Shown here piece after piece: positions 7,110-31,897 of a stretch of 64,000 bases of DNA. The stretch lies in contig NZ_AQPH01000011.1 of NCBI RefSeq assembly GCF_000442515.1, positions 1-64,000 of the forward strand, read 5' to 3'. A program made the translations under genes and the position numbers. Each line of letters begins with the position of its first letter. The stretch's first letter is position 1. The notes under the pieces are model-generated. The model had not been told where the DNA came from. It saw nothing but the letters and a program-made list of their open reading frames with translations, and did no database searches. Origin of the DNA: Magnetospirillum fulvum MGU-K5. GTDB lineage: Bacteria > Pseudomonadota > Alphaproteobacteria > Rhodospirillales > Magnetospirillaceae.

Positions 7110-7132
7110 CGACAGGGCCCTTCTCTAGTGCG

Positions 7133-9165: not shown

Positions 9166-9307
9166 CAGTTTCCCATGGGCCTGGGCGGTGAAAGGGTGCA
9201 ATAAAGCACGAAGTCCCCCCACCTGGGGAGTGGTTTTGTGGGCTTTTCTGCGCCCGATGTACAGAAGCCTCTTCGCCGGTTCGTCCCGGTCGCGGCATGA
9301 TGGAGCG

Positions 9308-10990: not shown

Positions 10991-11334
10991 ACATCACCTC
11001 CACCTTGTGCAACGAACTGGCCGTGGTGGCCCTGGAGGGCGACGTCGATCTTCGATGCAGCCCGGCTTTGCGCAAGGAATTGCTGGAACGGACCTTCGAA
11101 CGGCGCGACATCGTGGTCGATTTGTCCGGAGTCGGTTATATCGATAGTTCGGGGATCGCCGGGCTGGTCGAGGCCTATCAGGGCGCGCGCGACAACGGCA
11201 CCCGTTTTCTTCTGGCGGCCCCCAGCGAGCCGGTCCTGCGCGTGCTGCGTCTGGCCCGTCTGGACCGCGTATTCACGATCGTCGACAGCGTCGAGCCGCT
11301 TGCCGCCGCTTCTCCCGGAGAACCCTTGTCTTGA
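10987..11334 (+). CDS. STAS-domain anti-anti-sigma factor-like protein
   Basis: A 115-residue single STAS domain with the phosphorylatable-serine motif YIDSSGIAGLVEAYQ preceded by a beta strand IVVDLSGV, as in SpoIIAA/RsbV. In such systems the unphosphorylated STAS protein sequesters the anti-sigma kinase. The gene overlaps the GAF-PP2C-kinase gene by ATGA and the next methyltransferase gene by TTGA, so it is clearly co-translated with its partner. The downstream target (sigma factor or other output protein) is not in the window. Confidence 0.92.
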   Translation: MNITSTLCNELAVVALEGDVDLRCSPALRKELLERTFERRDIVVDLSGVGYIDSSGIAGLVEAYQGARDNGTRFLLAAPSEPVLRVLRLARLDRVFTIVDSVEPLAAASPGEPLS

Positions 11335-12656
11335 GAAAACCCGCCCGCCGTCCCCGTGCCCCCGCCAAACGGCAAGTGTCGCCCCGTCTGGTCGAACTGG
11401 AGATCGAACAGGTCGGTGCCCAGGGCGACGGTGTCGCCCGGTTCGAAGGTAATGTCGTGTTCGTGCCCTTTACCGTCGCGGGCGATCGCGTCCTGGCCCG
11501 GATCGAAGGGCGGCGCGGCGACGGACTGACTGCCGCCCTGGTCGAGGTGCAAAGCGCCGGGCCGGGCCGGGCCGATCCCGCCTGTCCGCATTTCGGACGC
11601 TGTGGCGGCTGCGCCCTTCAGCATCTCGACCCGGAGGCACATGCGGCGTGGAAGTCCGGGCTGCTGTCGCTGCATCTGGCCCGTGCCGGAATTGGCGACG
11701 AAACCCTGGCCCCGCTGGTGTCGGTGCCGCCCGGCACCCGGCGCCGTGCCGTGTTCGCCTGGAGCGTGCGCCGCGGCGAGGCGACTGTCGGCTTCAACGC
11801 CCGCGCCAGCCATGCGGTCATCGATCTGGAAACCTGTCCGTTGCTCGATCCGGCGCTGGTGGCGCTGCTCGAACCGTTGCGGCAGATGCTGGGCGGGATG
11901 GTCAAGACCGGCAGCGGCGACGCCACCGTGACCTTGACCGAGGGCGGCCCCGATCTGCTGATCGAGGGCGAGGCCCAACTGGACCTGTTCGGGCGCGAAA
12001 CGCTGGCCCGTTTTGCCGAAACCGCCGATCTGGCCCGGCTGCACTGGCGTCGGCCCGGCACCGGCTTTGCCGAGCCGATTGCCCGCCGCCGTCCCGCCTT
12101 GGTCCGCTTTGGGGGCGTGGCGGTCGAACCGCCGCCGGGCGCGTTCCTGCAACCCAGCCCCGAGGGCGAGCGCGCCATCGCCGACCGGGTGGTTGCGGCC
12201 TTGACCGAGGTCGGTGGGCCGGTCGCCGATCTGTATGCCGGGTGCGGTAGTTTCACCCTGCCGCTGGTGCGGCTGGGGGCGGTTCATGCCGTCGAGGGCG
12301 AAGCCGCCCCGCTGGAGGCGCTGGGGGCGGCGGCGCGGGCCGCCGGTCTGGCGGTAACCACCGAAATCCGCGATCTCGCCCGCCGTCCGCTCAGTCCGAG
12401 CGAACTGGCACCGTACCGCGCCGTGGTGCTCGATCCGCCCCGCGCCGGGGCGGCGGCTCAGGTCGCCGAACTGGCCCGCTGTGTCGATCCCCGCAAGGGA
12501 CCGGGGCTGGCGGCGATGGTTTCGTGCAATCCGGCGACGCTGGCGCGCGATCTGCGCGTGCTGATTGATGGCGGATGGACGTTAATCCAGATTATGCCTA
12601 TTGACCAGTTCCCTTGGTCTGCCCATCTTGAGGCTGTAGCGATACTTCGTCGCTGA
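11331..12656 (+). CDS. Class I SAM-dependent RNA m5U methyltransferase (TrmA/RlmC/RlmD family)
   Basis: The 441-residue protein has a TRAM-like N-terminal domain (LVELEIEQVGAQGDGVARF), a cysteine cluster CPHFGRCGGCALQHL (Cys at about 84, 90 and 93) that with a later Cys forms the [4Fe-4S] site of RlmD-type enzymes, and a C-terminal Rossmann methyltransferase (DLYAGCGSFTLPL). The catalytic motif is SCNPATLARDL, where the Cys attacks C6 of uridine. It probably methylates a uridine in 23S rRNA. The start is TTG 11331, overlapping the STAS stop by four bases with GGAG upstream. Whether it is RlmC, RlmD or TrmA cannot be settled here. Confidence 0.9.
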   Translation: MRKPARRPRAPAKRQVSPRLVELEIEQVGAQGDGVARFEGNVVFVPFTVAGDRVLARIEGRRGDGLTAALVEVQSAGPGRADPACPHFGRCGGCALQHLDPEAHAAWKSGLLSLHLARAGIGDETLAPLVSVPPGTRRRAVFAWSVRRGEATVGFNARASHAVIDLETCPLLDPALVALLEPLRQMLGGMVKTGSGDATVTLTEGGPDLLIEGEAQLDLFGRETLARFAETADLARLHWRRPGTGFAEPIARRRPALVRFGGVAVEPPPGAFLQPSPEGERAIADRVVAALTEVGGPVADLYAGCGSFTLPLVRLGAVHAVEGEAAPLEALGAAARAAGLAVTTEIRDLARRPLSPSELAPYRAVVLDPPRAGAAAQVAELARCVDPRKGPGLAAMVSCNPATLARDLRVLIDGGWTLIQIMPIDQFPWSAHLEAVAILRR

Positions 12657-12670
12657 TCGGTGAGGGGCGG

Positions 12671-13288
12671 GTGGACGGAAACGATCTCGATCTGGCCGAA
12701 GCATTGTGTGCCCGGCTCTGTCACGATCTGGCCGGTCCTTTGGGGGCGGTGGCGTCGGGCGCGGAATTGCTCGGCGAGGATCCCGACCCGGAAACGGCTC
12801 GTCTGGTGGCGTCGACCGCCGCCGATGCGGTTTCCCGTCTTCGCCTGTTACGGGCGGCGCTGGGGACGGCAGGGGGCGTTCGGCCCGAAGGAGAGTTGCG
12901 CGGACTGGCCCGCTGCTATCTCGATGCAGGGGCGTCGTCTGCCGCCCGCTTCGATCTGGTCTGGCAATCGGACCGGCCGGAGCTGACGGGCGAAATGGGG
13001 CGGTTGTTGCTGTCGCTGGTCGTGGTGGCCAAAGAGTCCCTGCCGCGCGGCGGACGGGTCTCGGTCGAGGTTTCGGCGGCTCCTGTCGCCGGTCGGTGCG
13101 GTGTGGCGGTTGGGTTTCACGGCCCGTCGGCCCGGCTCGAACCGGACAGTCGGGCAGCCCTGGGCGGGACGGTTCAGGTTTTTGGACCGCGTGCCGCAGT
13201 GGCGTGTTGGGTATCGAGACTGGCAGCGAGGGCCGATACTGCCATCGTTGTTGAGGATCAGGTCGATGGCGGATGGATAAGGACATGA
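12671..13288 (+). CDS. chpT: ChpT-like histidine phosphotransferase
   Basis: A 205-residue protein whose N-terminus has LCHDLAGPLGAVASGAELL (about residues 15-33), the helix with the phosphorylatable His of ChpT-type phosphotransferases, followed by a degenerate ATPase-like domain without intact nucleotide motifs. In Alphaproteobacteria ChpT relays phosphate from CckA to CtrA and CpdR, which control cell cycle and, in many Rhodospirillales, flagella and chemotaxis genes. It starts with GTG 12671 just after the methyltransferase stop and sits 185 bp before cheA, fitting a link to motility control. The symbol rests on the His motif and on context. Confidence 0.75.
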   Translation: MDGNDLDLAEALCARLCHDLAGPLGAVASGAELLGEDPDPETARLVASTAADAVSRLRLLRAALGTAGGVRPEGELRGLARCYLDAGASSAARFDLVWQSDRPELTGEMGRLLLSLVVVAKESLPRGGRVSVEVSAAPVAGRCGVAVGFHGPSARLEPDSRAALGGTVQVFGPRAAVACWVSRLAARADTAIVVEDQVDGGWIRT

Positions 13289-13473
13289 AACCGCCGCTGT
13301 CGACTTCGTTGCGCAAACGGTTTTATTGTCGTCAGTGGGTCGAGACGGTTCTTCCAGAGCCATCCCGACCGTGTTATGACTAATCCGAGCTGCCTTTCGC
13401 GATTCCATCCGGGAGGCGGGAGGATTCGGTGCCCTTGAGGCCAGTGCCCGCGAGGACCCAACTGGAGTCGACC

Positions 13474-16164
13474 ATGGATGATCTCCTCAGCGAATTCCTG
13501 ACCGAGACATCGGAAAGCCTTTCCGTACTCGATGTCGCCCTGGTGACCTTGGAACAGAATCCGAACGATCCCAAGATCCTCGGCAACATCTTCCGGTTGG
13601 TTCATACGATCAAGGGGACCTGTGGCTTTCTCGGCTTGCCCCGCCTCGAACACGTCGCCCATGCCGGCGAAAACGTGCTGGGCAAATTCCGCGATGGCGA
13701 GTTGGAAGTCACCCCCGATGCGGTGACGTTGATCCTGCAATCGATTGATTGCATCAAGTCGATCCTGTCGCATCTCGAACAGAACGAAGTCGAACCCGAA
13801 GGCGATGACAGCGCCCTGATCGCCCGGTTGAACGACATGGCGGAAGGCCGGTCGTCGTCCCCGGCTGCCGCTGCTTCCGCTCCGCCGCCGCCTCCTCCTC
13901 CTCCGCCGCCTGCGCCCGAACCCGTGTTCGAGGCCGCGCCGGAGCCGGAGCCCGAGCCGGTTGTTGCCGCCGCCCCGCCGCCGCCTCCCCCGGTCCATCA
14001 TCCCGAGCCGGTGCACGAGCCCGAGCCGGTTCATGCCAATCTGCCCGCGACCGCGGTGCAACCGGCCGCCGCCGCGCCGGTGCCGCTGGGCGAGGCCAAG
14101 GAATCCGCCGTCGCCGCCCAGACCATCCGCGTCAACGTCGACCTGCTTGAAAACCTGATGACCCTGGTGTCCGAGCTGGTGCTGACCCGCAACCAGCTGC
14201 TCCAGATGGTGCGCGGCAAGGACGACAGCGAATTCGCCACCCCGTTGCAGCGTCTGTCTCACATCACCACCGACCTTCAGGAAGGGGTGATGAAGACCAG
14301 GATGCAGCCGATCGGCAATGCCTGGGCCAAGCTGCCCCGTATCGTTCGCGATCTTGCCGTTGAAATGAACAAGAAGATCGACCTCCAGATGCTGGGGGCC
14401 GAAACCGAACTCGACCGTCAGGTTCTGGAACTGATCAAGGACCCGCTGACCCACATGGTCCGCAACTCCGCCGATCACGGGCTGGAAGGTCCGGACGAGC
14501 GCAAGCGGAACGGTAAGTCCGAGGTCGGCAAGATCGTGCTGAACGCCTTCCACGAGGGCGGCCACATCATCATCGAGATTTCCGACGATGGACGCGGCCT
14601 GAACCTTGACCGCATCAAGCAGAAGGCGGTGCAGAACGGGCTGGCCACCGAGTCCGAGCTGGAGACGATGACGTCCCAGCAGATTTATCAGTACATCTTC
14701 AAGGCCGGGTTCTCGACCGCTGAAAAGGTCACCAGCGTGTCGGGCCGTGGCGTCGGCATGGACGTCGTCCGCACCAATATCGAGCGGATCGGCGGCACCG
14801 TCGAATTGAAGAGCCAGCCCGGCAAGGGCTCGACCTTCATCATCAAAATTCCGCTGACGCTGGCGATCGTGTCCGCCCTGATCGTCGAATGCGCGGTCGA
14901 ACGCTTTGCGATCCCGCAGATCAGCGTGCTGGAACTGGTCCGGGTCACCGCCAATTCCGAGCACGGGATCGAGATGATCAACAGCGCGCCGGTTCTCCGG
15001 CTGCGCGACCGGCTGTTGCCGCTGGTGTCGCTGAAGCGCCTGCTGCGCCTCGCCGACGATACCGAGGAGCGGCAGGAGACCTTTATCGTCGTCACCCAGG
15101 TCGGCACCTACACCTTCGGCATCATCGTCGACCGGGTGTTCGATACCGAAGAAATCGTCGTCAAGCCGGTGGCGCCGATCCTGCGCAACATCACGATGTT
15201 CTCGGGCAATACCATCCTGGGCGACGGCTCGGTGATCATGATCCTCGACCCCAACGGTATCGCGGGCAGCGCGACCGGCGAGTCCGGGATGGTCACCAAC
15301 GCTCAGACCGCCGAGGCCCAGGTGCCGCGCGAAGCCCACGCCGATGCGAAGACCTCTCTGCTGGTGTTCCGCGCCGGTGGCGACGATCTCAAGGCGGTGC
15401 CGCTGGCTCTGGTCGCCCGTCTTGAAGAGCTCGACGTCAAGGATATCGAGCACAGCCACGGCAAGCCGATGGTCCAGTATCGCGGCCAGTTGATGCCGCT
15501 GGTCTCGATCGACGGCTCGACCAGCTTCCGCGACGAGGGACGCCAGCCGGTGCTGGTCTTCTCGGACCGCGAGCACACGATGGGGCTGGTGGTCGACGAA
15601 ATCGTCGATATCGTCGAGGACCGGCTCAAGGTCGAACTCAGCGCCGGATCGACCGGGATTATCGGTACCGCGGTGATCGCGGGCAAGGCGACGACGATCA
15701 TCGATGCCGGCTATTACCTGCCCCAGGCTTTCGGCGACTGGTTCGGCCGCAACGACAAGGAATTCGGGACGCTGGACGTTCATCAGCCCCGCATCCTGCT
15801 GGTCGACGACTCGCCGTTCTTCCGCAATCTGCTGACCCCGCTGCTGTCGGTCGCCGGGTACGAAGTGATCGCGGTCGATGGGGCCGACCGGGCCTTGGCG
15901 CTGCGCGAGCAGGGCAACGAGTTCGACGCGATCATCAGCGACATCGAGATGCCGGGGATGAGCGGGTTCGACTTCGCCGACGCGGTGCGCTCCGACCCAC
16001 GCTGGGCTCAGGTGCCGCTGGTGGCGTTGTCGTCGCACGCGACCGAAAAGGATTTCGAACGGGGACGGCAGGTCGGCTTCAACGACTACATCGCTAAATT
16101 CGATCGCGATGCCCTGTTGCAGTCTCTGGCCTCGACCATCGCCACCGCCAAAGGTGCCGCATGA
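13474..16164 (+). CDS. cheA: Hybrid chemotaxis histidine kinase CheA with C-terminal receiver
   Basis: The 896-residue protein has an HPt domain (1-105, phospho-His 44 in LVHTIKGTCGFLG), a long Pro/Glu/Ala-rich linker (about 125-210), then dimerisation and GHKL ATPase domains (HMVRNSADHGLE, ISDDGRGL, SGRGVGMDVV). Two CheW-like stretches follow, then a C-terminal receiver (about 771-893, phospho-Asp 823 in IISDIEMPGMSG). It autophosphorylates under receptor control and passes phosphate to CheY and CheB; the fused receiver may act as a phosphate sink. Start ATG 13474 is preceded by GGAG. It overlaps cheW by ATGA and opens the cheAWYBR operon. Confidence 0.97.
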   Translation: MDDLLSEFLTETSESLSVLDVALVTLEQNPNDPKILGNIFRLVHTIKGTCGFLGLPRLEHVAHAGENVLGKFRDGELEVTPDAVTLILQSIDCIKSILSHLEQNEVEPEGDDSALIARLNDMAEGRSSSPAAAASAPPPPPPPPPPAPEPVFEAAPEPEPEPVVAAAPPPPPPVHHPEPVHEPEPVHANLPATAVQPAAAAPVPLGEAKESAVAAQTIRVNVDLLENLMTLVSELVLTRNQLLQMVRGKDDSEFATPLQRLSHITTDLQEGVMKTRMQPIGNAWAKLPRIVRDLAVEMNKKIDLQMLGAETELDRQVLELIKDPLTHMVRNSADHGLEGPDERKRNGKSEVGKIVLNAFHEGGHIIIEISDDGRGLNLDRIKQKAVQNGLATESELETMTSQQIYQYIFKAGFSTAEKVTSVSGRGVGMDVVRTNIERIGGTVELKSQPGKGSTFIIKIPLTLAIVSALIVECAVERFAIPQISVLELVRVTANSEHGIEMINSAPVLRLRDRLLPLVSLKRLLRLADDTEERQETFIVVTQVGTYTFGIIVDRVFDTEEIVVKPVAPILRNITMFSGNTILGDGSVIMILDPNGIAGSATGESGMVTNAQTAEAQVPREAHADAKTSLLVFRAGGDDLKAVPLALVARLEELDVKDIEHSHGKPMVQYRGQLMPLVSIDGSTSFRDEGRQPVLVFSDREHTMGLVVDEIVDIVEDRLKVELSAGSTGIIGTAVIAGKATTIIDAGYYLPQAFGDWFGRNDKEFGTLDVHQPRILLVDDSPFFRNLLTPLLSVAGYEVIAVDGADRALALREQGNEFDAIISDIEMPGMSGFDFADAVRSDPRWAQVPLVALSSHATEKDFERGRQVGFNDYIAKFDRDALLQSLASTIATAKGAA

Positions 16165-21729: not shown

Positions 21730-22884
21730 TTAAACCCGATCCAGCGCCTGGGCGATGTCGGCGATCAGATCGGCTTCGTCCTCGATCCCGACCGACAGGC
21801 GCACCAATTGCGGGGTGATCCCCAGCGCGTCGCGGCGTTCGGCCGGGATCGATCCGTGGCTCATGCTGGTGGGGTGGCCGACCAGACTTTCGACGCCGCC
21901 CAGGCTTTCGGCCAAGGTGAACAGCGACAGCCCGGTCAGGAAGCGGGTCACCCCCGCTTCGTCGCTGTTCAGTTCCAGTGTCACCATGCCGCCGAACCCA
22001 TTCATCTGCCGCGCCGCGACCGCATGTTGGGGATGGCTGGCCAAGCCGGGATAGATCAGCCGGGTTAGCTTGGGGTGGTGTTCGAAGGCCTGGGCGATCG
22101 CCAGCGCGTTGGCGGAATGCCGCTCGATCCGAAGCGCCAGGGTCTTCAGCCCGCGCAGCGCCAGGAAGGCGGCGAACGGGTCGAGAATCGCCCCGGTGGC
22201 ATTCTGGAGAAAGCCCAGACGCGCGGCCAGATCGGCGTCCCGCACCACGACGATTCCGGCGATGATGTCGGAATGGCCGTTCAGATACTTGGTCGCCGAA
22301 TGGACCACGATGTCGAAGCCCAGATCGAGCGGACGCTGCACCACCGGCGAGGCGAAGGTCGAATCCGCGACGGTCAGCACCCCGGTCTTGCGGCCGATCG
22401 CGGCAATCGCGGCCAGATCGGCGACCTTCAGCAACGGATTGCTGGGGGTCTCGATCCAGATCAGCTTGGTCTCGGGCCGGATCGCCGCTTCGATCGCGGC
22501 GGAATCGGTCGGATCGACAAAGGTGACGGTCAGCCCCGAGGTGCGGCTGCGCACCCGCTGGAACAGCCGCCACGACCCGCCATAAAGATCGTCACCGGCG
22601 ACGATGTGGCCGCCCTGGTCGAGCAGGTCGAGAATCGTCGTTTCCGCCGCCAGACCCGAGGCAAAGGCGAAGCCGAAGCCGCCGCCTTCCAACTGGGCCA
22701 CCGCCTGCTCGAACGCGGCGCGGGTGGGGTTGCCGGTGCGGGCATATTCCCAGCCGGTGTGAACGCCGGGCGCGCTTTGGGCAAAGGTGGACGAGGCGTG
22801 GATCGGCACCATCACCGCGCCAGTGGCCGGATCGGGGCCGGGACCGGCATGAACGGAGAGGGTGGAAAAACCGTGTTGGGTCAT
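21730..22884 (-). CDS. Cystathionine gamma-lyase/gamma-synthase family PLP enzyme
   Basis: A 384-residue Cys/Met-metabolism PLP enzyme: FSTLSVHAGPGPDPATGAVMVPI at the N-terminus, YARTGNPTRAAFEQAVAQLEGG, the substrate-pocket DSTFASPVVQRPLDLG and the cofactor-lysine motif HSATKYLNGHSD (Lys 199). The C-terminus has SLGGVESLVGHPTSMSHGS. Its ATG overlaps the stop of the cystathionine beta-synthase gene by four bases. In that pairing it most probably cleaves cystathionine to cysteine (reverse transsulfuration), although gamma-synthase activity cannot be ruled out from sequence. Start ATG 22884 was chosen over a longer open frame because of the overlap and the family N-terminus. Confidence 0.93.
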   Translation of the reverse strand: MTQHGFSTLSVHAGPGPDPATGAVMVPIHASSTFAQSAPGVHTGWEYARTGNPTRAAFEQAVAQLEGGGFGFAFASGLAAETTILDLLDQGGHIVAGDDLYGGSWRLFQRVRSRTSGLTVTFVDPTDSAAIEAAIRPETKLIWIETPSNPLLKVADLAAIAAIGRKTGVLTVADSTFASPVVQRPLDLGFDIVVHSATKYLNGHSDIIAGIVVVRDADLAARLGFLQNATGAILDPFAAFLALRGLKTLALRIERHSANALAIAQAFEHHPKLTRLIYPGLASHPQHAVAARQMNGFGGMVTLELNSDEAGVTRFLTGLSLFTLAESLGGVESLVGHPTSMSHGSIPAERRDALGITPQLVRLSVGIEDEADLIADIAQALDRV

Positions 22885-24248
22885 GCTGCTACTTTCCGCC
22901 GCAAATGGTTGAGCAGGTCGATACGGGTGATGAGGCCCAGGAAGCGTTCGCCATCGACGACGATCGCGACCCAGCCCCGGTCGAACAGGGGAAGAAGCCG
23001 TTCCGGCGGGGTGTCGATCCCGACGGTTTCGATATTGCCGGTCATCGCTACCCGGACCGGCAGGTCGAACCCGGCCGACCATTCGCCAAGCGCAATCAGG
23101 ACGTCGGATTCGTCCAGCATCCCGACGCATTGATCGCCCGCCAGCACCGGCACCTGCGAGACGTCGTGCAGCTTCATCCGCTGATAGGCAACCAGCAACG
23201 AATCCTCGGGCGCCACCGTCACCACCGCGCCTTCGTCATGGCGCCGCGAGATGATATCGCGCAGATCACCGTGACGCGGCCGCGTCAGCAAGCCCTGATC
23301 GGCCATCCAGAAATCGTTGTACATCTTGGACAGATACTTGTTGCCCGAGTCGCAGACGAAGGTGACCACCCGCTTGGGCGTCGTCTGTTCGCGGCAATAG
23401 CGCAACGCCGCCGCCAGCAAGGTTCCCGACGACGAGCCGATCAGCAGACCTTCGTCGCGCAGCACCTGACGCGCCACCGCGAAGCTTTCGCCGTCGGTGA
23501 TGGTATAGGCGTGCTTGACCCGCGACAGATCGGACACCGGCGGGATGAAATCCTCGCCGATTCCTTCGACCAGCCATGACCCGGCGGTGCCGACCTCGCC
23601 GGTCCGGGTGTATTCGGCCAGAATCGATCCCTTGGGGTCGGCCAGAACGATGTCGGTGGTGGGCGAGACGCGGGCGAAAAAGCGCGACAGCCCGGTCAGG
23701 GTGCCGCCCGATCCGACCCCGGCGACCACCGCATCGACCGCGCCGCCGGTCTGTTCCCAAATCTCGGGGCCGGTGGTGGTTTCATGCGCGGCGGGATTGG
23801 CCGGGTTGTTGAACTGGTCGGCGAAGAAGGCGCCGGTTTCGCGGGCGATCCGCTCGGCCAGATCCTGGTAATACTCAGGATGACCCTTGGCGACGTCGGA
23901 GCGGGTCAGCACCACCTCGACCCCCATCGCCCGCAAATGGGCGATCTTCTCGCGGCTCATCTTGTCGGGGATCACCAGGGTCAGGCGATAGCCGCGCCGG
24001 ATCGCCAGCAAGGCCAGAGCGAGGCCGGTATTGCCTGCGGTGGCTTCGACGATCTGCCCGCCCGGCTTTAACCGTCCATCCGCCTCGGCCGCCTCGATCA
24101 TCGATAGGGCGATGCGATCCTTGATCGAGCCGGATGGGTTCTGGTTCTCCAGTTTGACGAACAATCGGCACGGCCCGGCATCGAGCCGGGTCAGCTCGAT
24201 CAGCGGGGTGTTGCCGATGTGATTCAACGGGTCGGCATCGCGGGACAT
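22881..24248 (-). CDS. cbs: Cystathionine beta-synthase with C-terminal CBS-domain pair
   Basis: The 455-residue protein has a fold-type II PLP domain (residues 1-320) with IGNTPLIELT, the cofactor Lys 43 in NPSGSIKDRIA, EATAGNTGLALA, VAGVGSGGTLTGLSRF and SSSGTLLAA, followed by a CBS-motif pair (about 330-455: VAPEDSLLVAYQRMKLHDVSQVPVL and IDTPPERLLPLFDRGWVAIV). It condenses homocysteine or a related substrate with serine. The CBS pair suggests allosteric regulation. It is cotranscribed with the CGL-type gene and lies just downstream of the encapsulin operon, separated by a hairpin. Confidence 0.92.
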   Translation of the reverse strand: MSRDADPLNHIGNTPLIELTRLDAGPCRLFVKLENQNPSGSIKDRIALSMIEAAEADGRLKPGGQIVEATAGNTGLALALLAIRRGYRLTLVIPDKMSREKIAHLRAMGVEVVLTRSDVAKGHPEYYQDLAERIARETGAFFADQFNNPANPAAHETTTGPEIWEQTGGAVDAVVAGVGSGGTLTGLSRFFARVSPTTDIVLADPKGSILAEYTRTGEVGTAGSWLVEGIGEDFIPPVSDLSRVKHAYTITDGESFAVARQVLRDEGLLIGSSSGTLLAAALRYCREQTTPKRVVTFVCDSGNKYLSKMYNDFWMADQGLLTRPRHGDLRDIISRRHDEGAVVTVAPEDSLLVAYQRMKLHDVSQVPVLAGDQCVGMLDESDVLIALGEWSAGFDLPVRVAMTGNIETVGIDTPPERLLPLFDRGWVAIVVDGERFLGLITRIDLLNHLRRKVAA

Positions 24249-24411: not shown

Positions 24412-26262
24412 CTAAATCGTTCGCCGCGCTCCGTGGTTGCGCCGCAGGGCATCGACCAGGGCGTCGATATCCTCGCGGGTGTTATAAAGGGCCAGACTGG
24501 GCCGCACCGTCGCTTCGATTCCGAACCGGCGCAAGATCGGCTGGGCGCAATGATGCCCGGCCCGGACCGCGATTCCTTCGCGGTCGAGCGCCTTGCCGAT
24601 CTCGATCGGCGGGCAGCCGTCGATGACGAAGGACAGCACCCCGGCCTTTTCCGCCGCCGTGCCGATCAGGCGCAGCCCCGGAATCGATCGCAGCCCGGCG
24701 GTGGCATAGCCCAGCAGCTCGTGTTCCCAGGCGGCGATGTTGGCCATCCCGATCCCGTCGAGATAATCAATCGCGGCCCCCAGCCCCACCGCGTCGGCGA
24801 TGTTGCCGGTTCCGGCCTCGAACCGCGCCGGAGCGGGTTGATAGACCGTTTTCTCAAAGGTGACGTCGGCGATCATGTTGCCGCCACCCTGCCACGGCGG
24901 CATCGCGTCAAGGACGTCCTTGCGGCCGTAAAGGACGCCGATCCCGGTCGGGCCGAACACCTTGTGCCCCGAGAACACATAGAAGTCGCAGCCCAGCGCC
25001 TGGACATCGACCGGCATGTGCGATACCGCCTGGGCACCATCGACCAGGGCCAGGGCGCCGTGACGGTGGGCGATCGCCACCATCTCGGCCGCCGGGGTGA
25101 CGGTGCCGAGCGCGTTCGAGACCTGGGTGAACGAGGCGATCTTGGTGCGGTCGGTGAACAGCCGCTCGTATTCCTCGAGGATCACCTGACCGTGATCGTC
25201 AACCGGCGCAACCTTCAGCTTGGCCCCGGTGCGGGCGCAGAGCTGTTGCCAGGGAACGATGTTGGCGTGATGCTCGAGCCAGGAGACGACGATCTCGTCG
25301 CCCTCGCGGAGGTTGCGCCCGCCCCACGCCTTGGCCACCAGATTGATCGCCTCGGTCGCGCCACGGACGAACACGATTTCCTCGACCGACCCGGCTCCCA
25401 GAAAGCGGCGGACCTTCTCGCGCGCCGCTTCATAGGCGTCGGTCGAACGCGCCGCCAGGGCATGGGCAGCGCGGTGGATGTTCGAGTTCTCGTGCTCGTA
25501 ATAGCGGTCAAGCCGCTCGATCACCGCGCGCGGCTTCTGGGTCGTCGCCGCATTGTCGAGCCAGATCAGCCGCTTGCCGTGAACCTGCTCGGACAGGATC
25601 GGAAAATCGCGGCGGATCGCGGCGGCGTCGAACGCCCGCACCCCGCTGGTGGGGGCCAGATCGATTCCGAGCGGATGGGTTTCGGTCCGGGTCGGCAGCG
25701 ATGCGGTGGGGGCCTCGCGCAGGCTGATCCCCTCGGCATCGTCGATGAAGTAATAGCCCGCGACATCGGGAAGCGCGGGAGCCGCCGCGACCGGAGCCGA
25801 GGCCGGGGCCGTCGCGGGACTTGGCAGATCGGGCGCGGCCGCTTCGGGCAGATCGGGGCTGCCGACCGGGGCCACCGGACCGGCGGCATGGTCGGGCGGC
25901 ACCAGCGACAGCACCGCCCCCAGCAGGGTGGGGATGGTGCGCAGATCGCCATTGCCCGGAATCGGCGCGGGCGGCACCGCGGTCGGGTTGACCGGAGCGG
26001 GCTTGGGCGCCGCCGCCAGCGGCCCCAATCCAGGCAGAGCGGGGTTGGTGGTGAGATGGCCGACCGATGGCGGGGTCGGCGCTCCTGGGGGCACGAAGCC
26101 CCCGCTCGGCCCCGTCTCGACCAACGGTGTCGAGGGCAGGGCCACCCCCAGCGATGGCGCCGTCTGACCCGGCAAGGCCGCGAAGAAGGCGTTGGCCATC
26201 TGCGCGATCAAAGCCGGGTCGGGCGCCCCCGCGAAGGGGAGGGGAGGAACGGGGTCGCTCAT
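24412..26262 (-). CDS. Encapsulated SufS-type cysteine desulfurase with long disordered N-terminal extension
   Basis: The 616-residue protein has two parts. Residues 1-210 are low-complexity, rich in Pro, Ala and Gly, with short hydrophobic islands (MANAFFAALPG about 22-32, IPTLLGAVLSLVPP about 110-123, VAGYYFID about 167-174). Residues 211-616 are a complete group II cysteine desulfurase: FDAAAIRRDFPIL, LDNAATTQKP, the PLP Lys 434 in SGHKVFGPTG, and the active-site Cys 572 in RAGHHCAQPIL. It takes sulfur from cysteine as a persulfide. The start ATG overlaps the encapsulin stop by ATGA. This extension plus the neighbouring shell gene is the pattern of Family 2A encapsulin cargo, where the extension directs loading. 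A housekeeping SufS would lack it. Confidence 0.95.
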   Translation of the reverse strand: MSDPVPPLPFAGAPDPALIAQMANAFFAALPGQTAPSLGVALPSTPLVETGPSGGFVPPGAPTPPSVGHLTTNPALPGLGPLAAAPKPAPVNPTAVPPAPIPGNGDLRTIPTLLGAVLSLVPPDHAAGPVAPVGSPDLPEAAAPDLPSPATAPASAPVAAAPALPDVAGYYFIDDAEGISLREAPTASLPTRTETHPLGIDLAPTSGVRAFDAAAIRRDFPILSEQVHGKRLIWLDNAATTQKPRAVIERLDRYYEHENSNIHRAAHALAARSTDAYEAAREKVRRFLGAGSVEEIVFVRGATEAINLVAKAWGGRNLREGDEIVVSWLEHHANIVPWQQLCARTGAKLKVAPVDDHGQVILEEYERLFTDRTKIASFTQVSNALGTVTPAAEMVAIAHRHGALALVDGAQAVSHMPVDVQALGCDFYVFSGHKVFGPTGIGVLYGRKDVLDAMPPWQGGGNMIADVTFEKTVYQPAPARFEAGTGNIADAVGLGAAIDYLDGIGMANIAAWEHELLGYATAGLRSIPGLRLIGTAAEKAGVLSFVIDGCPPIEIGKALDREGIAVRAGHHCAQPILRRFGIEATVRPSLALYNTREDIDALVDALRRNHGARRTI

Positions 26263-27200
26263 GCGAATTTCTTGTCGTAATCGAAGTAGTGATCGACTTC
26301 GACGCCGTCGAGAACCGCGATTGCGTCTTCGGTCAGCACCGCCGCCGAGCAATAAAGCGAGATCAGGTAAGACGCGATCGCCTTGCGGTTAATCCCCATG
26401 AAGCGGACCGACAGTGACGGCGCGACTTCGCCCGGCACCCCCGGCTGGAACAGGCCGACGACGCCCTGCTTCTTCTCGCCGGTGCGCAGCAGCAGGATGT
26501 TGGTCTTGCCATCTTCGCCGATGGTCAGCTTGTCGGACGGCACGATCGGCAGGCCGCGCCAGGTGATGAAGGGATTGCCGAACAGATTGATCGTCGCGGG
26601 CGGCACGCCGCGCTTGGTGCATTCGCGCCCGAACGCGGCGATGGCGCGGGGATGGGCGATGAAAAAGGCCGGTTCCTTCCACACCTTGGTAATCAGTTCG
26701 TCGAGATCATCGGGGGTGGGGGCGCCGGTGCGGGTGTGAATCCGCTGTTGCGGCGCGATGTTGTTGAGCAGGCCGTATTCGCTGTTATTGATCAGCTCGT
26801 GTTCCTGCTTTTCCTTCACCTTCTCGATCAGCAGGCGAAGCTGTTCCTGAATCTGGTCGATCGGATGGGAATAAAGGTCGGAAACGCGGGTCTGGACGTC
26901 GAGAACCGAGGTCACCGCATTCAGCGAATATTCGCGGGGATGTTCTTCGTAGGGAACGTAGCTTTCGGGCAGGTCGGCATCGTTGCGCGGGCTGCACGTC
27001 ACGTCCGAAGCCCCGGCGGCGGCGGCTTCCTTGACGCGGTTCAGGCGATAGATACCGGCTTCGACCGGGGTCCAGGGCAGGAACGACACCAACCAGCGCG
27101 GGGTAATTCCCGACCACTGCGCCCGGGTCTTGGTGGCGTTGGCAAGCTGGCGCGCCGCCTGCTCGTTCAATGTGCGGCGAACCTCATTGTCCTCGGACAT
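26259..27200 (-). CDS. srpI: Family 2A encapsulin shell protein (SrpI-type)
   Basis: The 313-residue protein matches the SrpI group of HK97-fold encapsulins. It has an N-terminal arm with LNEQAARQLANATKTRAQWSG and WLVSFLPWTPVEAGIYRLNRVKE, an E-loop/spine region (HPREYSLNAVTSVLDVQTRVSDLYSHPIDQ around residues 88-120), NNSEYGLLNNI, WKEPAFFIAHPRAIAAFGREC and the C-terminal SVRFMGINRKAIASYLISLYCSAAVL. No cyclic-nucleotide-binding insertion is present, which distinguishes it from Family 2B. It should self-assemble into an icosahedral compartment holding the desulfurase encoded directly downstream (four-base overlap). A GAGGGAG ribosome site precedes ATG 27200. Confidence 0.94.
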   Translation of the reverse strand: MSEDNEVRRTLNEQAARQLANATKTRAQWSGITPRWLVSFLPWTPVEAGIYRLNRVKEAAAAGASDVTCSPRNDADLPESYVPYEEHPREYSLNAVTSVLDVQTRVSDLYSHPIDQIQEQLRLLIEKVKEKQEHELINNSEYGLLNNIAPQQRIHTRTGAPTPDDLDELITKVWKEPAFFIAHPRAIAAFGRECTKRGVPPATINLFGNPFITWRGLPIVPSDKLTIGEDGKTNILLLRTGEKKQGVVGLFQPGVPGEVAPSLSVRFMGINRKAIASYLISLYCSAAVLTEDAIAVLDGVEVDHYFDYDKKFA

Positions 27201-27262
27201 GCACGCGTCTCCCTCGAATGTGATGAGGACCGAAATCCTCTAACGATCTCTCTCTTCTACAC

Positions 27263-27276
27263 TTGATTTTCGTCAA
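27263..27276 (-). promoter_or_regulatory. Crp/Fnr-like palindrome upstream of the encapsulin gene
   Basis: TTGAT-TTTC-GTCAA differs from the FNR consensus TTGAT-N4-ATCAA by one base and is centred about 70 bases before the encapsulin ATG. It is in the 145-bp gap between the DUF2325 gene and the shell gene. Regulatory role is inferred only from the motif. Confidence 0.35.
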
Positions 27277-27345
27277 ATAGAGGCCCGTCCGAACCCGGAA
27301 GTGGCGCTTCCAGTCGGTTTCCTCCGTTATAGTGGAGGCGGGTTC

Positions 27346-27708
27346 TTAGATAGCGGAGGAGGTCCGGGCCGTGACCGAATCCAGCGCGGCGATGATCGCG
27401 GCGATCCCGGTGCTGCGGAGCGGACGGAACGGCTTGTCGAGGCGGCGGCACAGGCTCTTGACCCGGTCCTGGGCGGCGTGGCTGACGCAGCCCACCGGGA
27501 ACAGGACGGCGTCGGCCCGTTCAAGCTGCGCCGACAGCTTGCTCAGGCTCTGTTCGACCCCGCCGTCATGATGGACGAAGGCGCCGTTATGCGCCTCGAC
27601 GATCCGGCGCAGGTGGCTGACATGTTGGTGGCGGCCGCCGACATACAAGATCAGGCGTCCGGATAGATCGGGGCCGGTGGCGGCAAAACTGTCTAAGGGG
27701 GGCTGCAT
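27346..27708 (-). CDS. DUF2325-family protein, 120 aa
   Basis: The core reads ILYVGGRHQHVSHLRRIVEAHNGAFVHHDGG, then LSAQLERADAVLFPVGCVSHAAQD and CRRLDKPFRPLRSTG. This is the conserved DUF2325 pattern: a Rossmann-like fold with a VGG(R)xxH opening, paired His residues and a Cys-Ser-His that could bind a metal or ligand. The molecular role of the family is not established. It lies between cysE (17 bp) and the encapsulin gene (145 bp) on the same strand, so it probably belongs to the sulfur operon. The 120-residue length is that of the stand-alone form. Confidence 0.82.
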   Translation of the reverse strand: MQPPLDSFAATGPDLSGRLILYVGGRHQHVSHLRRIVEAHNGAFVHHDGGVEQSLSKLSAQLERADAVLFPVGCVSHAAQDRVKSLCRRLDKPFRPLRSTGIAAIIAALDSVTARTSSAI

Positions 27709-27725
27709 CGATGTCTCCCAGTGTG

Positions 27726-28586
27726 TCAGATGGAATAATCGAACGATTCGTAGGCAAGGGCGCCCAGCACCTCGCCCGGTGAGCGGGTGTCGGCGGCGGG
27801 ATTGGAGCGGATCACTTTTGCCGGGATTCCGGCGACGGTGGAGTTGGGGGCAACCTCGCGCAGCACCACCGATCCGGCGGCGATGCGGGAATAGGCCCCG
27901 ATTTCGATGTTGCCGAGGATCTTGGCCCCGGCCCCGATCATCACCCCCCGGCGAACCTTGGGATGACGGTCGCCGCTCTCCTTGCCGGTGCCGCCCAGGG
28001 TGACGTTCTGGAGCAGCGAAACGTCGTCATCAACCTCGGCCGTCTCGCCGACCACCAGCCCGGTAGCGTGGTCGAGGAAGATGCCGCGTCCGAAGATCGC
28101 CGCCGGGTGGATGTCGGTCTGGAATACGTCGGAGGAGCGGCTTTGCAGGTACAGCGCGAAATCGCGCTCGCCCCGCCGCCACAGCCAGTGGGCCAGACGG
28201 TGAGTCTGGACCGCGTGAAAGCCCTTGAAATAGAGGAACGGCTCGATCAGCCGCTCGGTCGCGGGATCGCGGTCCAGCACGGCGGCGATGTCGGCGCGCA
28301 GCGCGGTCCCGATCGCGGGGTCGTGGGCCAGGGCGCGGGCAAAGGTCTCGGTCAGCAGGGTCTGCGAGACCTGATCGTTCTTCAGCCGTCCGGCGATGCG
28401 GTGGAACACCGCCGCCTCGAACGTTTCCTGATCGAGGATCGAGCCGATGAACAGACCGGCCAGCATCGGCGAGCGGGCCAGGGCCTCGGTCGCTTCGGCG
28501 CGCAGTCGGACCCAGAACGCGTCGGCCTCGCCGCGCAGAGCTTCGAGCGTGTCAGGCAGGCCCCGGACTTTGCTGGCTTCGGTCAT
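27726..28586 (-). CDS. cysE: Serine O-acetyltransferase
   Basis: The 286-residue protein has the helical SATase N-domain (about 15-150, with FEAAVFHRIAGRLKN and FLYFKGFHAVQTHRLAHWLW) and a left-handed beta-helix hexapeptide domain with DIHPAAIFGRGIFLDHATGLVVGE, NVTLGGTGK and VGENL-like IAAGSVVL, ending in a tail with AGIPAKVI. It makes O-acetylserine for cysteine synthesis. The C-terminal tail ends YSI, compatible with CysK binding through a terminal Ile. It overlaps the XRE-cupin regulator by ATGA and leads to DUF2325, shell and cargo genes, so cysteine supply and storage or use are coupled in one operon. Confidence 0.96.
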   Translation of the reverse strand: MTEASKVRGLPDTLEALRGEADAFWVRLRAEATEALARSPMLAGLFIGSILDQETFEAAVFHRIAGRLKNDQVSQTLLTETFARALAHDPAIGTALRADIAAVLDRDPATERLIEPFLYFKGFHAVQTHRLAHWLWRRGERDFALYLQSRSSDVFQTDIHPAAIFGRGIFLDHATGLVVGETAEVDDDVSLLQNVTLGGTGKESGDRHPKVRRGVMIGAGAKILGNIEIGAYSRIAAGSVVLREVAPNSTVAGIPAKVIRSNPAADTRSPGEVLGALAYESFDYSI

Positions 28587-29203
28587 TCGGTGTGTTCCGG
28601 ATAAGTCATCACCAGATAGAACAAGGCCTCGATCGGCCCAGCATTGCGGTAGGAATGGGGGCGGTCGGCGACAAAATGGATCGCGTCGCCGTATTCGAGG
28701 CGGAACCGCTCGTCGGCGACGACCACCTCAAGGCTGCCCTGGGCCAGCACCAGATTCTCGGTCGTGCCGGGCGAATGGGGATCGGCGTCTTCGATGGTCT
28801 GGGGGGCCAGACGCATCTCGTAGAATTCAACGCGGCGGGGGCCGCTGAACGGGAACAGGGCCCGCGACGAAAACCGTCCGCTGCGCGATGTCAGCAATTT
28901 GGCCCGGTGAGCCCGCAGCACCGAGACTTCGCCGCTGCCGGTCGCGGCGGTGAAGGCCGAGAACGGAACTTCCATCGCCCGGGCAATCTTCCACAGCACC
29001 GCGACGCTGGGGACCGAGCGGCCCAATTCGATTTGCGACAGCATCGCCCGGCTGACCCCCGAGGCTCGGGCCAGACGCTCCAGCGACAGGCCGTTGCGGG
29101 TGCGCAGCCGCCGCAGATTCTCCCCGACCAGAGCGGTAAAATCGCTGGTTGAGGAATCCTCCGACGTCGGTTCCGGGGTCAGGTGGGAAACCGATTCGTT
29201 CAT
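28583..29203 (-). CDS. XRE-family regulator with C-terminal cupin domain
   Basis: A 206-residue protein. A helix-turn-helix spans about residues 25-80 (LVGENLRRLRTRNGLSLERLARASGVSRAMLSQIELGRSVPSV) and a cupin-2 sensor domain about 110-200 (RVEFYEMRLAPQTIEDADPHSPGTTENLVLAQGSLEVVV, then YGDAIHFVADRPHSYRNAG). Such SutR/PuuR-like regulators bind a small ligand in the cupin barrel. It overlaps cysE by four bases, so it most likely controls this sulfur operon; E. coli SutR, of the same architecture, acts in sulfur use. Start ATG 29203 is chosen; a GTG ten codons upstream is an alternative. Confidence 0.9.
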   Translation of the reverse strand: MNESVSHLTPEPTSEDSSTSDFTALVGENLRRLRTRNGLSLERLARASGVSRAMLSQIELGRSVPSVAVLWKIARAMEVPFSAFTAATGSGEVSVLRAHRAKLLTSRSGRFSSRALFPFSGPRRVEFYEMRLAPQTIEDADPHSPGTTENLVLAQGSLEVVVADERFRLEYGDAIHFVADRPHSYRNAGPIEALFYLVMTYPEHTE

Positions 29204-29217
29204 CTGCCTGACCGCCT

Positions 29218-29355
29218 TCAGCCGACCTGCCACACCGGCAGCATGACCCAGACGGGAACCCAGACGATGCCGGGGATCGACGTCGACGGAGCCGCGGCCA
29301 ATTGGCGGCGGCGGCGAACTTCGGTGAAATCGATGATGGTGGCGGACCGGCTCAT
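29218..29355 (-). CDS. Small protein, 45 aa, upstream of the XRE regulator
   Basis: The frame encodes MSRSATIIDFTEVRRRRQL, an Arg-rich basic stretch, and then a Trp- and Val-rich hydrophobic tail (IPGIVWVPVWVMLPVWQVG, about residues 27-45). The start ATG 29355 has AGGG about 9 bases upstream. It ends 14 bases before the XRE-cupin ATG, so it may be co-transcribed. The tail could insert in a membrane. No family is recognised. The positioned ribosome site and spacing make it plausible but unproven. Confidence 0.5.
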   Translation of the reverse strand: MSRSATIIDFTEVRRRRQLAAAPSTSIPGIVWVPVWVMLPVWQVG

Positions 29356-29694
29356 GGACTTACCCTTTCCTAACACTCTGTCAAGGCGGGAAGCCCGGTT
29401 TTCCGGGGATTCCGCCGCAGCAATCCGGCTGGGCGGGCCAACCTCTTTAGCTGCATTTGTTGAGCGCCCGCAAGCTGAAACCTCAAATCGGCGCTGTAGT
29501 AAGAGGCTACAATCCACAAGCCTCGGTGTCAATCCATAAGATCAGTAGAGATGTGAGTTTACATCCCGACGCGGCAACGGAGGAAACCGACGTCTCGCCG
29601 CCACGATCGGTTGAGGGCACCCCGGCAGCGGAGCATCTTGATGGAAGAGAAAGGGCGGACGGAGGGTCCGCCACAGGGCAAAAGGGGAACCACC
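29356..29694. promoter_or_regulatory. Divergent promoter region between the sulfur operon and the Met-rich gene
   Basis: No gene is seen in these 339 bp. It holds two inverted repeats that could be operators: TGTAG-N7-CTACA (29495-29511) and GATGT-N6-ACATC (29550-29565). A TTGACA lies at 29384-29379 on the minus strand, 24 bases before the 45-aa gene. A 7-bp hairpin GGCGGAC / GTCCGCC (29654-29672) sits just upstream of the Met-rich gene's ribosome site. Confidence 0.45.
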
Positions 29695-30148: not shown

Positions 30149-31420
30149 TCACGCCCGCGCAACCGGCAAGTCGGTCCAGGCGGTGGTGTAGTTGGGCGAA
30201 CGGTTGCCGCAGCGCATCTGCCACGGCGCATCCTTCGGGATCAGGCCGTATCCGACCAATCCCTTCCCCAGCCGCCCGTTGAGGCCGTCGACCGCTGCCA
30301 TCAGCGCCTGTCCGCGTGGATTTGGCGGCGGCGAGAACAAATCGCGGGGCACGTTGGCCGGATTGACCAGATCGAGCAGGATCACCCCGGCTTTCTTATA
30401 GGCATACCCCTCCCGCCACGCCGAGCGCAGCCCGGCGATTGCCGCCGCGATCACCCGTGGCGTCGATGACGTCGGCGGCGACAGCCGGACCATCGCGTTC
30501 AGCGAGATTTGCGGCTGGTCGCGGCGAAAACGGTCGGTATAGGCGAACACCTGAAGCGCTCCGGCGACCAGAGTCTCGGCGCGGATTTTCTCGGCGGCCC
30601 GGCTGGCGAAGGTCAGCACGGCGTCGTGGACATGCTCATAGGCGGTCACCGTCTCGGCGAACGAGCGGGAACAGCAGGTGGTTTGCTTGTCCGACGGTTC
30701 GGTGTCGAGGGTATGGACCGGAATGCCGCGCAGCTCCATCACGGTGCGCAGGCCGACCGCTCCCATCGTCTTCCTGATCCAGCCGTCTTCGGCCTGGGTC
30801 AGGTCATAAGCGGTGAGGATGCCATGCAGCCCGCAATGCCCGGCATAATTCCGCCCGATCCCCCAGACCTCGCGGACCGGGGTTCGCTTCAGCGCCGCTT
30901 CGACCCAGCCCGGATGTCCGGCCAGATCAAGCACCCCGTTGGCGCGGGGCGAGGTCTTGGCCAGCCGGTTGGCCAGCTTGGCCAGCGTCTTGGTGCCGCC
31001 GATCCCCACCGAGACCGGGATGCCGGTCCAGCGTTTCACCGTCGCCCGGATGTGCCGACACCATGCGGCCAGGTCCGGCACCGCCAATCCGTCAAGATCA
31101 AGGAAGCATTCGTCGATCGAATAGACTTCGGCCCCAGGGGCAAAGGTCGCCAGCACCGACATCACCCGCTCGGACATGTCGCCATACAGGGTGTAATTGG
31201 ACGATTGCAGGATCAGGCCATGGCGCTCGACCAGGGGGCGGAGCTTGAAGGCCGGCTCGCCCATCGGCACGCCGATCGCCTTGGCCTCGGCAGAGCGCGA
31301 CACCGCGCAGCCGTCATTGTTGGACAAGACGGCCACCGGCTTCCCCTCAAGGGCGGGATTGAACACCCGCTCGCAGGAGACATAGAAATTGTTGCAATCG
31401 ACCAGGGCGTAGACCGCCAT
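30149..31420 (-). CDS. umuC: DNA polymerase V catalytic subunit UmuC (Y-family)
   Basis: The 423-residue protein starts YALVDCNNFYVSCERVF with the catalytic acidic residue, has VLSNNDGCAVSRS, the second catalytic motif VYSIDECFLDLDG, the helix-hairpin-helix region PVREVWGIGRNYAG and the little-finger domain, ending with the DUF4113-like PRGQALMAAVDGLNGRLGKG. It carries out error-prone translesion synthesis after DNA damage. It lies 6 bp downstream of umuD on the minus strand, under one LexA box. Length and motifs are complete. Confidence 0.96.
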   Translation of the reverse strand: MAVYALVDCNNFYVSCERVFNPALEGKPVAVLSNNDGCAVSRSAEAKAIGVPMGEPAFKLRPLVERHGLILQSSNYTLYGDMSERVMSVLATFAPGAEVYSIDECFLDLDGLAVPDLAAWCRHIRATVKRWTGIPVSVGIGGTKTLAKLANRLAKTSPRANGVLDLAGHPGWVEAALKRTPVREVWGIGRNYAGHCGLHGILTAYDLTQAEDGWIRKTMGAVGLRTVMELRGIPVHTLDTEPSDKQTTCCSRSFAETVTAYEHVHDAVLTFASRAAEKIRAETLVAGALQVFAYTDRFRRDQPQISLNAMVRLSPPTSSTPRVIAAAIAGLRSAWREGYAYKKAGVILLDLVNPANVPRDLFSPPPNPRGQALMAAVDGLNGRLGKGLVGYGLIPKDAPWQMRCGNRSPNYTTAWTDLPVARA

Positions 31421-31426
31421 GGCGGA

Positions 31427-31897
31427 TCACCGCCGCGTCATCGCCGACACGGCGAAGGTGACAATTCCCCAAATCTGCACGCCGTCCTCCTCGTTGACGG
31501 GGAAGCTTGGATAATCGGGGTTGGCCGAGGCGAGTTCCCAGCCCGCGTCGGTCTTGCGCAAGGTCTTGACCGTCAGCCCGCCGTCCAGCGTCGCGACGAC
31601 GATGTCACCGTCCTGGGGCTGGACCGAGCGATCGACCACCAGCAGATCGCCACTTTGAATCCCGGCCCCGGTCATGCTGTCGCCATCGGCGCGGCAGAAG
31701 AAGGTTGCCGCCGGGCGCTTCACCATCAGTTCGTGCAGGTCGAGCTTGCCCTCAAGGTGATCGTCGGCCGGAGAGGGGAACCCGGCCGGAACCAGCGCCG
31801 AATAGATCGGGGCCGCGCCCTCGCCGGGAACGAAGGCTCGGGACGAGGCCCGGCAGGTGCCGGGGGGCAACGGGGCGTTGTGATCCGATGAGAACAT
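31427..31897 (-). CDS. umuD: UmuD-like S24 autoprotease subunit of DNA polymerase V
   Basis: A 156-residue LexA/UmuD-fold protein. The catalytic Ser lies in RADGDSMTGAGI and the catalytic Lys in GGLTVKTLRK, with GDLLVVDRSVQPQDGDIVVA between them. RecA filaments promote its self-cleavage to the active form that joins UmuC. The N-terminus (first ~30 residues) is the part expected to be removed. The ATG at 31897 sits inside the LexA box. A start further in, at another methionine, would remove the cleavage region, so this start is kept. Confidence 0.93.
   Translation of the reverse strand: MFSSDHNAPLPPGTCRASSRAFVPGEGAAPIYSALVPAGFPSPADDHLEGKLDLHELMVKRPAATFFCRADGDSMTGAGIQSGDLLVVDRSVQPQDGDIVVATLDGGLTVKTLRKTDAGWELASANPDYPSFPVNEEDGVQIWGIVTFAVSAMTRR

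Follow-up and report, generated by a model that had tools for sequence, protein, structure and literature searches.

The family 2A encapsulin of S. elongatus packages its desulfurase cargo through the N-terminal domain of the cargo (PMC8049743), and the system is upregulated in sulfur starvation (PMC8346489). Among 1281 family 2A desulfurase operons, serine O-acetyltransferase and rhodanese genes are reported as the most enriched accessories (PMC8346489). Here we analyse a 64,000-nt stretch of DNA from Magnetospirillum fulvum MGU-K5 (the window, by whose coordinates features are given), in which genes for a family 2A shell, a cysteine desulfurase cargo and a serine O-acetyltransferase (cysE) lie together with a gene for a short DUF2325 protein and close to genes for an XRE-cupin regulator and a methionine-rich protein. 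Taken as a whole, the locus is probably a family 2A encapsulin module for sulfur limitation, to judge from its sequence. For DUF2325 alone, the least described part of the locus, a role as accessory redox or sulfur protein is slightly favoured.

The window's shell matches that of the S. elongatus SrpI/CyD system (6x8m; PMC8049743) over nearly its full length, and the two loci share the cargo type and forms of both loading motifs, but the window set, known here from its genes alone, also has cysE, DUF2325, XRE-cupin and cystathionine beta-synthase (CBS)- and cystathionine gamma-lyase (CGL)-type neighbours. The operons surveyed in PMC8346489 likewise combine shell, desulfurase and serine acetyltransferase, whereas DUF2325, which the window adds, does not appear in the accessible part of that account. 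Azospirillum plasmid loci (e.g. NZ_CP007795), annotated as family 2A, resemble the window in shell, cargo and cysE, with a divergent XRE gene, but their cysE lies downstream and the stretch shown holds no DUF2325. DUF2325 has itself been named a possible secondary cargo of anammox encapsulin systems in a figure legend (PMC6934571); those proteins are of the same Pfam family and are encapsulin-tied, but the encapsulins there are cytochrome-fused. Another member of the family, C. jejuni Cj1384c, belongs to an oxidative-stress setting: its gene lies in a katA cluster, responds to violet-blue light with strong induction and is under PerR and RacRS control (PMC9426514). It has 7 Cys against 2 in the window protein.

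The shell-desulfurase-cysE system is ordinary, since it is published, already annotated (shell and cargo are named in Azospirillum and Methylosinus plasmid records) and common among the 80 named shell loci that we compared (the best 80 of 283 relatives, many clipped at contig ends). In the open PMC literature, the only DUF2325-encapsulin link was the anammox figure legend; on encapsulins and Rrf2 it gave an iron review, no paper on a Magnetospirillum desulfurase encapsulin was found, and the search on methionine-rich proteins in sulfur storage returned plant work only. By computation only, the new parts are DUF2325, the control that it likely shares with the shell among relatives, and the methionine-rich gene; the core was already known.

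Identity of the shell, the cargo and their neighbours

A preliminary description of this DNA had put cysE, DUF2325, shell and cargo side by side; all four are present where it had them, on the minus strand, and the four-base overlap of shell and cargo (ATGA) is as it described. The four family matches are not due to chance. The 313-aa shell reaches 524 bits against the family 2A model NF041162 encap_f2a (cut-off 380) and 8e-106 against PF19307, the sole domain found in it. It also passes the 2B model (434 bits, cut-off 400), below its 2A score, and it lacks the cNMP-binding domain that marks 2B. Among solved sequences, SrpI 6x8m comes nearest to it (E 7e-137 by phmmer, 67% identity over 97% by tblastn), and its closest relatives among the 283 are a named M. 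fulvum record (99% identical) and M. molischianum (98%). The HK97 fold proposed for it was checked with Foldseek on the predicted model, which places the solved shells of families 2A and 2B at the top and phage capsids much lower; because that model is poor (pLDDT 54), the identification rests mainly on the sequence match.

The cargo scores 855 bits against the encapsulated-type desulfurase model NF041166 f2_encap_cargo1 (cut-off 800) and 576 bits against the SufS subfamily model TIGR01979 (cut-off 475). Its open reading frame begins at an upstream TTG in the mechanical list (646 aa) and spans 616 aa from ATG. SGHK and RAGHHCAQP, which we take to be the sites of the catalytic Lys and Cys, lie in the part aligned with solved SufS enzymes (8kg1). 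The long N-terminal extension noted in the preliminary description is a Pro/Ala-rich domain of ~200 residues and carries IAQMANAFF and GYYFIDDA, forms of both motifs reported for SrpI cargo, LARLANEFFS and AASPYYFLDG (PMC8049743). The view that a family 2A shell and an encapsulated-type cysteine desulfurase sit within a sulfur-amino-acid gene cluster is supported by these matches.

A further idea, that cysteine synthesis takes place inside the organelle, found no such support: read by eye, the CysE translation (TIGR01172, 227 bits, cut-off 210.65) holds neither cargo loading motif. On this ground CysE is rejected as cargo and probably stays in the cytosol, as a neighbour only. Another full-score cysE copy is present on contig C25 of the genome, and near it lie two more strong matches to Aminotran_5, the desulfurase family, so the encapsulin set is probably an extra one and not housekeeping. 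Downstream of the cargo are two genes for pyridoxal phosphate (PLP) enzymes. The CBS-type gene reaches 379 bits, below the cut-off of 510 for TIGR01137 (cystathionine beta-synthase), and since the scores of the pair lie below equivalog cut-offs we assign both to families only. The regulator has the HTH_3 and Cupin_2 domains of the XRE-cupin type; SutR as a name for it is only a lead.

These genes form three tight blocks, namely regulator-cysE-DUF2325, shell-cargo and the PLP pair, with overlaps of 4 bases between regulator and cysE (28583-28586) and between the two PLP-enzyme genes (24248-21730). A single operon with one transcript stays no more than a proposal, because a 145-base gap with a genome-unique palindrome parts DUF2325 from the shell. 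This gap, the regulator, the PLP pair and the methionine-rich gene had been overlooked.

DUF2325 in shell-bearing genomes and a motif shared among relatives

The DUF2325 protein matches PF10087 at 80.8 bits (cut-off 33.6). Invariant in eight aligned sequences are GGRHQH (24-29), HHDGG (46-50), C74xxH77 and C87, and the predicted structure is a four-strand alpha/beta domain (pLDDT 73). We counted short DUF2325 genes, meaning open frames below 300 aa (real genes have ~120-140 aa), in the 55 genomes of the window's GTDB family, of which 15 have the shell and 26 any DUF2325. A short DUF2325 occurs in 18 genomes, among them every one of the 15 that have the shell; the remaining 3 (G013, G051, G054) belong to the 40 shell-less genomes, an association with a Fisher p of 7e-11 when genomes are counted without correction for kinship. 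Comparing shell-bearing with shell-less genomes inside single genera gives 10/10 vs 0/7 in g1, 2/2 vs 0/11 in g15 and 1/1 vs 0/4 in g5; in g17 the counts are 2/2 vs 2/3, so there is no tracking there. DUF2325 adjoins the shell in all ten shell-bearing g1 genomes and in none of the other five. In G027 the two share a contig, with ~12 kb between DUF2325 and a shell piece at the contig end; in G029 it lies on a different contig (>700 kb) from the shell, and in G004, G050 and G052 it lies on other contigs, some of them too short to fix the true distance.

A tree built from 49 domains shows that the DUF2325 sequences linked to Magnetospirillum shells group with the G004 copy (95/83) and, less surely, with the G029 copy (83/70), and all members of this group come from shell-bearing genomes. 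The group lacks the CxxC common in many others and keeps C74xxH77 and C87. A second kind of DUF2325 protein, of ~420 aa with the domain at its C-terminus, was seen at L131 (G000:C17, 9652-10914) and in relatives; on plasmids, long forms lie in some records beside molybdate transport, gephyrin-like or NifQ genes.

In G004, the locus of DUF2325 and that of the shell were first seen to have a sequence in common, CTAYTA-N2/3-TASTAG. Across 116 records (1.62 Mb) this pattern occurs exactly at 8 sites, every one of them preceding shell/cysE/DUF2325 genes, an Rrf2 gene or an Rrf2/TauD pair (Table 1). A slightly wider pattern gives 4 sites among the 80 loci, against zero when these are resampled five times at order 1. 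Because the searched sequences were picked for these genes, the evidence is the rarity of the motif elsewhere and not the number of sites. A one-mismatch form, CTATTGATCTAGTAG, stands ahead of cysE in L008, G038 and G039, and further one-mismatch sites lie near a regulator-like gene in L005, before the CBS-type gene of G027 (L198) and once more in L004. These sites suggest that the motif, which often has an Rrf2-family gene close by, is likely an operator shared by shell/cysE operons and separate DUF2325 genes in several relatives.

Rrf2 genes (phmmer E 1e-6) occur in 10 named or other shell loci, those among the 80 being L007, L014, L016, L027, L039, L043 and L066. Like CymR and IscR, the L007 gene belongs to the Rrf2 superfamily (119.8 bits, cut-off 73.3), and its best equivalog is the cysteine regulator CymR, but at 91.2 bits (NF047409) it stays below the cut-off of 195. 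At L135 of G004 (4960-13629), a single family 2A encapsulin locus has three Rrf2-family genes around it, of which the first precedes a solute-binding-protein gene, the second precedes the shell and the third follows the hexapeptide acetyltransferase gene.

Several observations weigh against a functional tie between DUF2325 and the shell. Within 8 kb of the shell, the 80 loci hold cargo-like genes in 72, CysE-like in 58, regulator-like in 12 and DUF2325 in 7; all seven (L002-L008) are Magnetospirillum relatives, to which the order cysE-DUF2325-shell-cargo is confined among the 80, and the other 73 have no DUF2325 near the shell even by iterated profile. None of five shell-bearing genomes of the order outside the family has DUF2325. 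In a class-wide sample of 289 genomes, three have the shell and three DUF2325 at scores above the cut-offs, only the window's genome has both, and the other two shell-bearing genomes lack DUF2325. Of 50 shell-bearing genomes chosen from the 73 outside the genus, 17 have any DUF2325 above the cut-off and 7 a frame below 260 aa, including the already counted G050 and G052. Its absence near the shell in 73 of 80 loci, in the order and in the class sample, together with the 17/50 genomes, rules DUF2325 out as a general family 2A part. Elsewhere it sits with catalase, heme or molybdenum genes. No solved relative was found by sequence search, and the fold matches are to generic alpha/beta structures only (best Foldseek E 0.0055, best VIA-align Z ~10). 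The short DUF2325 of G027 is divergent and is placed, on a long branch, among the long forms; G027 and G029 both have a contamination value of 7; and the two G004 contigs are ~21 kb each, so that its DUF2325 and shell may be nearer than they appear. Lastly, even when one mismatch is allowed, the motif does not occur in the window, in L002, L003 and L006 (M. fulvum and M. molischianum included), in the g17 loci or in the G029 shell locus.

In g17, the neighbours of DUF2325 at L127 include an ABC transporter with a NIL domain, its permease, an NlpA-type lipoprotein and CBS-/CGL-type genes. L128 has CBS- and CGL-type genes by Pfam, its transporter being judged from translations only, as are the neighbours at L134.

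The methionine-rich gene and elements ahead of the shell

Divergent from the regulator lies a gene for a 126-aa protein with 55 Met (44%) and 6 Cys. Both M. fulvum and M. molischianum conserve it; no such gene was found in L004-L008. No Pfam or NCBIfam model covers the methionine-rich proteins tested. Third-position base changes between the three species number 19/33, 19/26 and 24/38, and the ribosome-binding region is conserved across all three; because the antisense frame shares third positions, it is the start signal, a clean stop and the relatives that decide the strand call.

The rhizobial form of the gene matches 45 plasmid records, and relatives occur on plasmids of Rhizobium, Shinella, Microvirga and Mesorhizobium; ten loci were examined, seven of them annotated. 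All ten keep the plus-strand frame (shortened in L227), and in nine a gene homologous to the window's regulator (168-201 bits) lies within ~1.6 kb, mostly at ≤0.2 kb, L230 being without one. The window regulator is 51 and 54% identical to two regulators beside methionine-rich genes on Rhizobium plasmids. In five of the seven annotated loci, the gene is annotated on the opposite strand. msuE lies close by in five (L222, L223, L225, L229, L230), four of which also have an LLM oxidoreductase gene, and L225 has in addition sulfonate ABC genes, a 2-oxoglutarate/iron oxygenase and a TIGR01244 sulfur transferase (a phosphatase-like domain by Pfam). L221 and L227 have none of the msuE, LLM, sulfonate or TIGR01244 genes in the stretch shown.

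The gap between DUF2325 and the shell holds CCTCCACTATAACGGAGG, an imperfect 18-base palindrome that matches at 14/18 positions and whose 16-base core pattern has no other site in the genome at up to one mismatch. The palindrome, an XRE-cupin gene beside cysE and the methionine-rich gene occur together in the window, M. fulvum and M. molischianum. In each of the three, CGGAGGAAACCG is found twice, ahead of the shell and ahead of the methionine-rich gene that diverges from the regulator; in L004-L006 the form CGGAGGAAASCG stands ahead of the shell only, and among the 116 records L052 alone has another site of this form. No RNA element was seen in the gap from DUF2325 to the shell (folding z just −0.87), and sigma-70 promoters and terminators showed no excess over shuffled sequences. 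A scan upstream of other shells for shared palindromes (8-base arms, one mismatch) gave nothing consistent, a scan that, like a default-length repeat search, also misses the window's own imperfect palindrome. In L071 and L072, ~100 bases ahead of the shell, are palindromes centred on TATA, ACCGCCTATAGGCGGT and ACCGGCTATACCCGGT, perhaps another family 2A shell operator in a different lineage.

Table 1. Features of the window, and exact sites of the candidate operator motif in relatives
Feature	Position	Strand	Remarks
Cys/Met metabolism PLP enzyme (cystathionine gamma-lyase/synthase family)	21730-22884	-	below equivalog cut-offs
PLP enzyme with CBS domains (cystathionine beta-synthase/cysteine synthase family)	22881-24248	-	PALP + CBS domains
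Encapsulin cargo, SufS-type cysteine desulfurase, 616 aa from ATG	24412-26262	-	NF041166
Family 2A encapsulin shell (SrpI-like HK97 fold), 313 aa	26259-27200	-	NF041162, PF19307
Imperfect palindrome CCTCCACTATAACGGAGG running into element CGGAGGAAACCGAC	27313-27338	-	between DUF2325 and shell
Short DUF2325 protein, 120 aa	27346-27708	-	PF10087
cysE, serine O-acetyltransferase with SATase_N	27726-28586	-	TIGR01172
XRE-cupin transcriptional regulator	28583-29233	-	HTH_3 + Cupin_2; probable start internal ATG near 29203
Second copy of CGGAGGAAACCGAC	29578-29591	+	103 bases ahead of methionine-rich gene
Methionine-rich protein gene, 126 aa	29695-30075	+	divergent from XRE-cupin regulator
Motif sites, two overlapping	L004		directly before cysE-DUF2325-shell operon
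Motif site	L007		before DUF2325-shell
Motif site CTATTATCTACTAG	L007, within 13089-14637		between Rrf2 gene and divergent TauD-type dioxygenase gene
Motif site	L129 (G004)		before DUF2325
Motif site	L135 (G004)		before shell
Motif site	G004		before Rrf2 gene
Motif site	L130 (G029)		before DUF2325 far from its shell

Proposed mechanism and alternative explanations

Families, loading motifs, gene order, co-occurrence and the DNA motifs shared in relatives are all read from sequence; particle formation, sulfur flux, regulation and a function for DUF2325 are what we infer. Under sulfur limitation or a shift in cysteine supply, shell and desulfurase would be made; the 313-aa protein would form the shell and the desulfurase would enter through its N-terminal domain. 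The desulfurase would convert cysteine to alanine and persulfide sulfur, which the shell may store or handle until the cell needs it. In 2024, Benisch and others reportedly described elemental sulfur inside a family 2A shell. CysE would make O-acetylserine in the cytosol, and the PLP pair would shift sulfur between methionine/homocysteine and cysteine. DUF2325 may be a cytosolic accessory under the same sulfur-limitation programme that helps to move or reduce sulfur. Its C74xxH77 and His-rich strand ends suggest metal binding, or a sulfane-sulfur/redox relay to or from the shell, and such carriage to or from the shell has been proposed for the rhodaneses of other family 2A operons. As a small protein whose gene tracks that of the shell and in relatives even has a likely operator in common with it when the two are apart, DUF2325 is a candidate partner for passing sulfur through the shell wall.

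The methionine-rich protein may serve as a second sulfur reserve and, if it truly does, would be an unusual bacterial sulfur store. One could go further and picture a two-store system, with sulfane sulfur in the encapsulin and organic sulfur in the 44%-Met protein of the cytosol, both under one XRE-cupin switch, linked by transsulfuration and with DUF2325 as relay; the regulator/methionine-rich pair would then be a wider sulfur-reserve module, present also in rhizobial plasmid sulfonate-use clusters and often annotated on the wrong strand. This fuller picture is speculative and, in all its parts together, unlikely. The ideas on DUF2325 and on the methionine-rich protein are testable in the culturable, non-pathogenic phototrophs M. 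fulvum and M. molischianum.

The main rival explanation makes DUF2325 a hitchhiker, with a general role in oxidative stress or metal handling, whose gene was lodged by chance in the Magnetospirillum ancestor beside a shell, cargo and CysE that act as published, and was kept. The stress setting of Cj1384c (PMC9426514), the diverse contexts of DUF2325 elsewhere and the limitation of the shell link to one GTDB family all fit such an origin. We nevertheless consider it a real but distinctly lesser possibility, because short DUF2325 tracks the shell in three genera (g1, g15 and g5, although not g17), even on separate contigs, and the off-contig copies of G004 and G029 bear the same rare motif as the shell operons. 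That DUF2325 might instead be a second cargo inside the shell, as proposed for anammox encapsulin systems (PMC6934571, where the legend calls it a possible secondary cargo), seems very improbable given that just 13 residues, variable between species, precede its first invariant residue and that neither published loading motif is seen in it by eye.

For the methionine-rich gene the balance is closer, and the view that it is unrelated to the encapsulin, encoding a Cu/Ag-binding or oxidant-scavenging protein that merely shares the regulator, has almost an even chance of being right. Proteins with Met runs and a few Cys are suited to bind Cu(I)/Ag(I) or to scavenge oxidants. At one Rhizobium locus, RND efflux genes stand nearby and msuE is missing; in the Mesorhizobium locus, the stretch shown contains no sulfur gene; and no such gene was found in L004-L008. 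Against this view stand the identical 12-base element before the methionine-rich gene and the shell in three species, msuE near five of the seven annotated plasmid loci together with the LLM oxidoreductase (4/7), and the sulfonate ABC and TIGR01244 sulfur-transferase genes at one of the seven. As to the desulfurase, its SufS-type catalytic domain would also suit Fe-S assembly or the detoxification of excess cysteine in place of sulfur storage, but encapsulation and the cysE and PLP neighbours point to sulfur-pool handling, and two genes for enzymes of the same family stand by the second cysE on contig C25, so that we regard either of these roles as improbable.

Beyond the methionine-rich gene, the minus strand at 30149-31897 encodes a UmuC-like polymerase (IMS family with DUF4113) and a Peptidase_S24 protein (UmuD/LexA-like).

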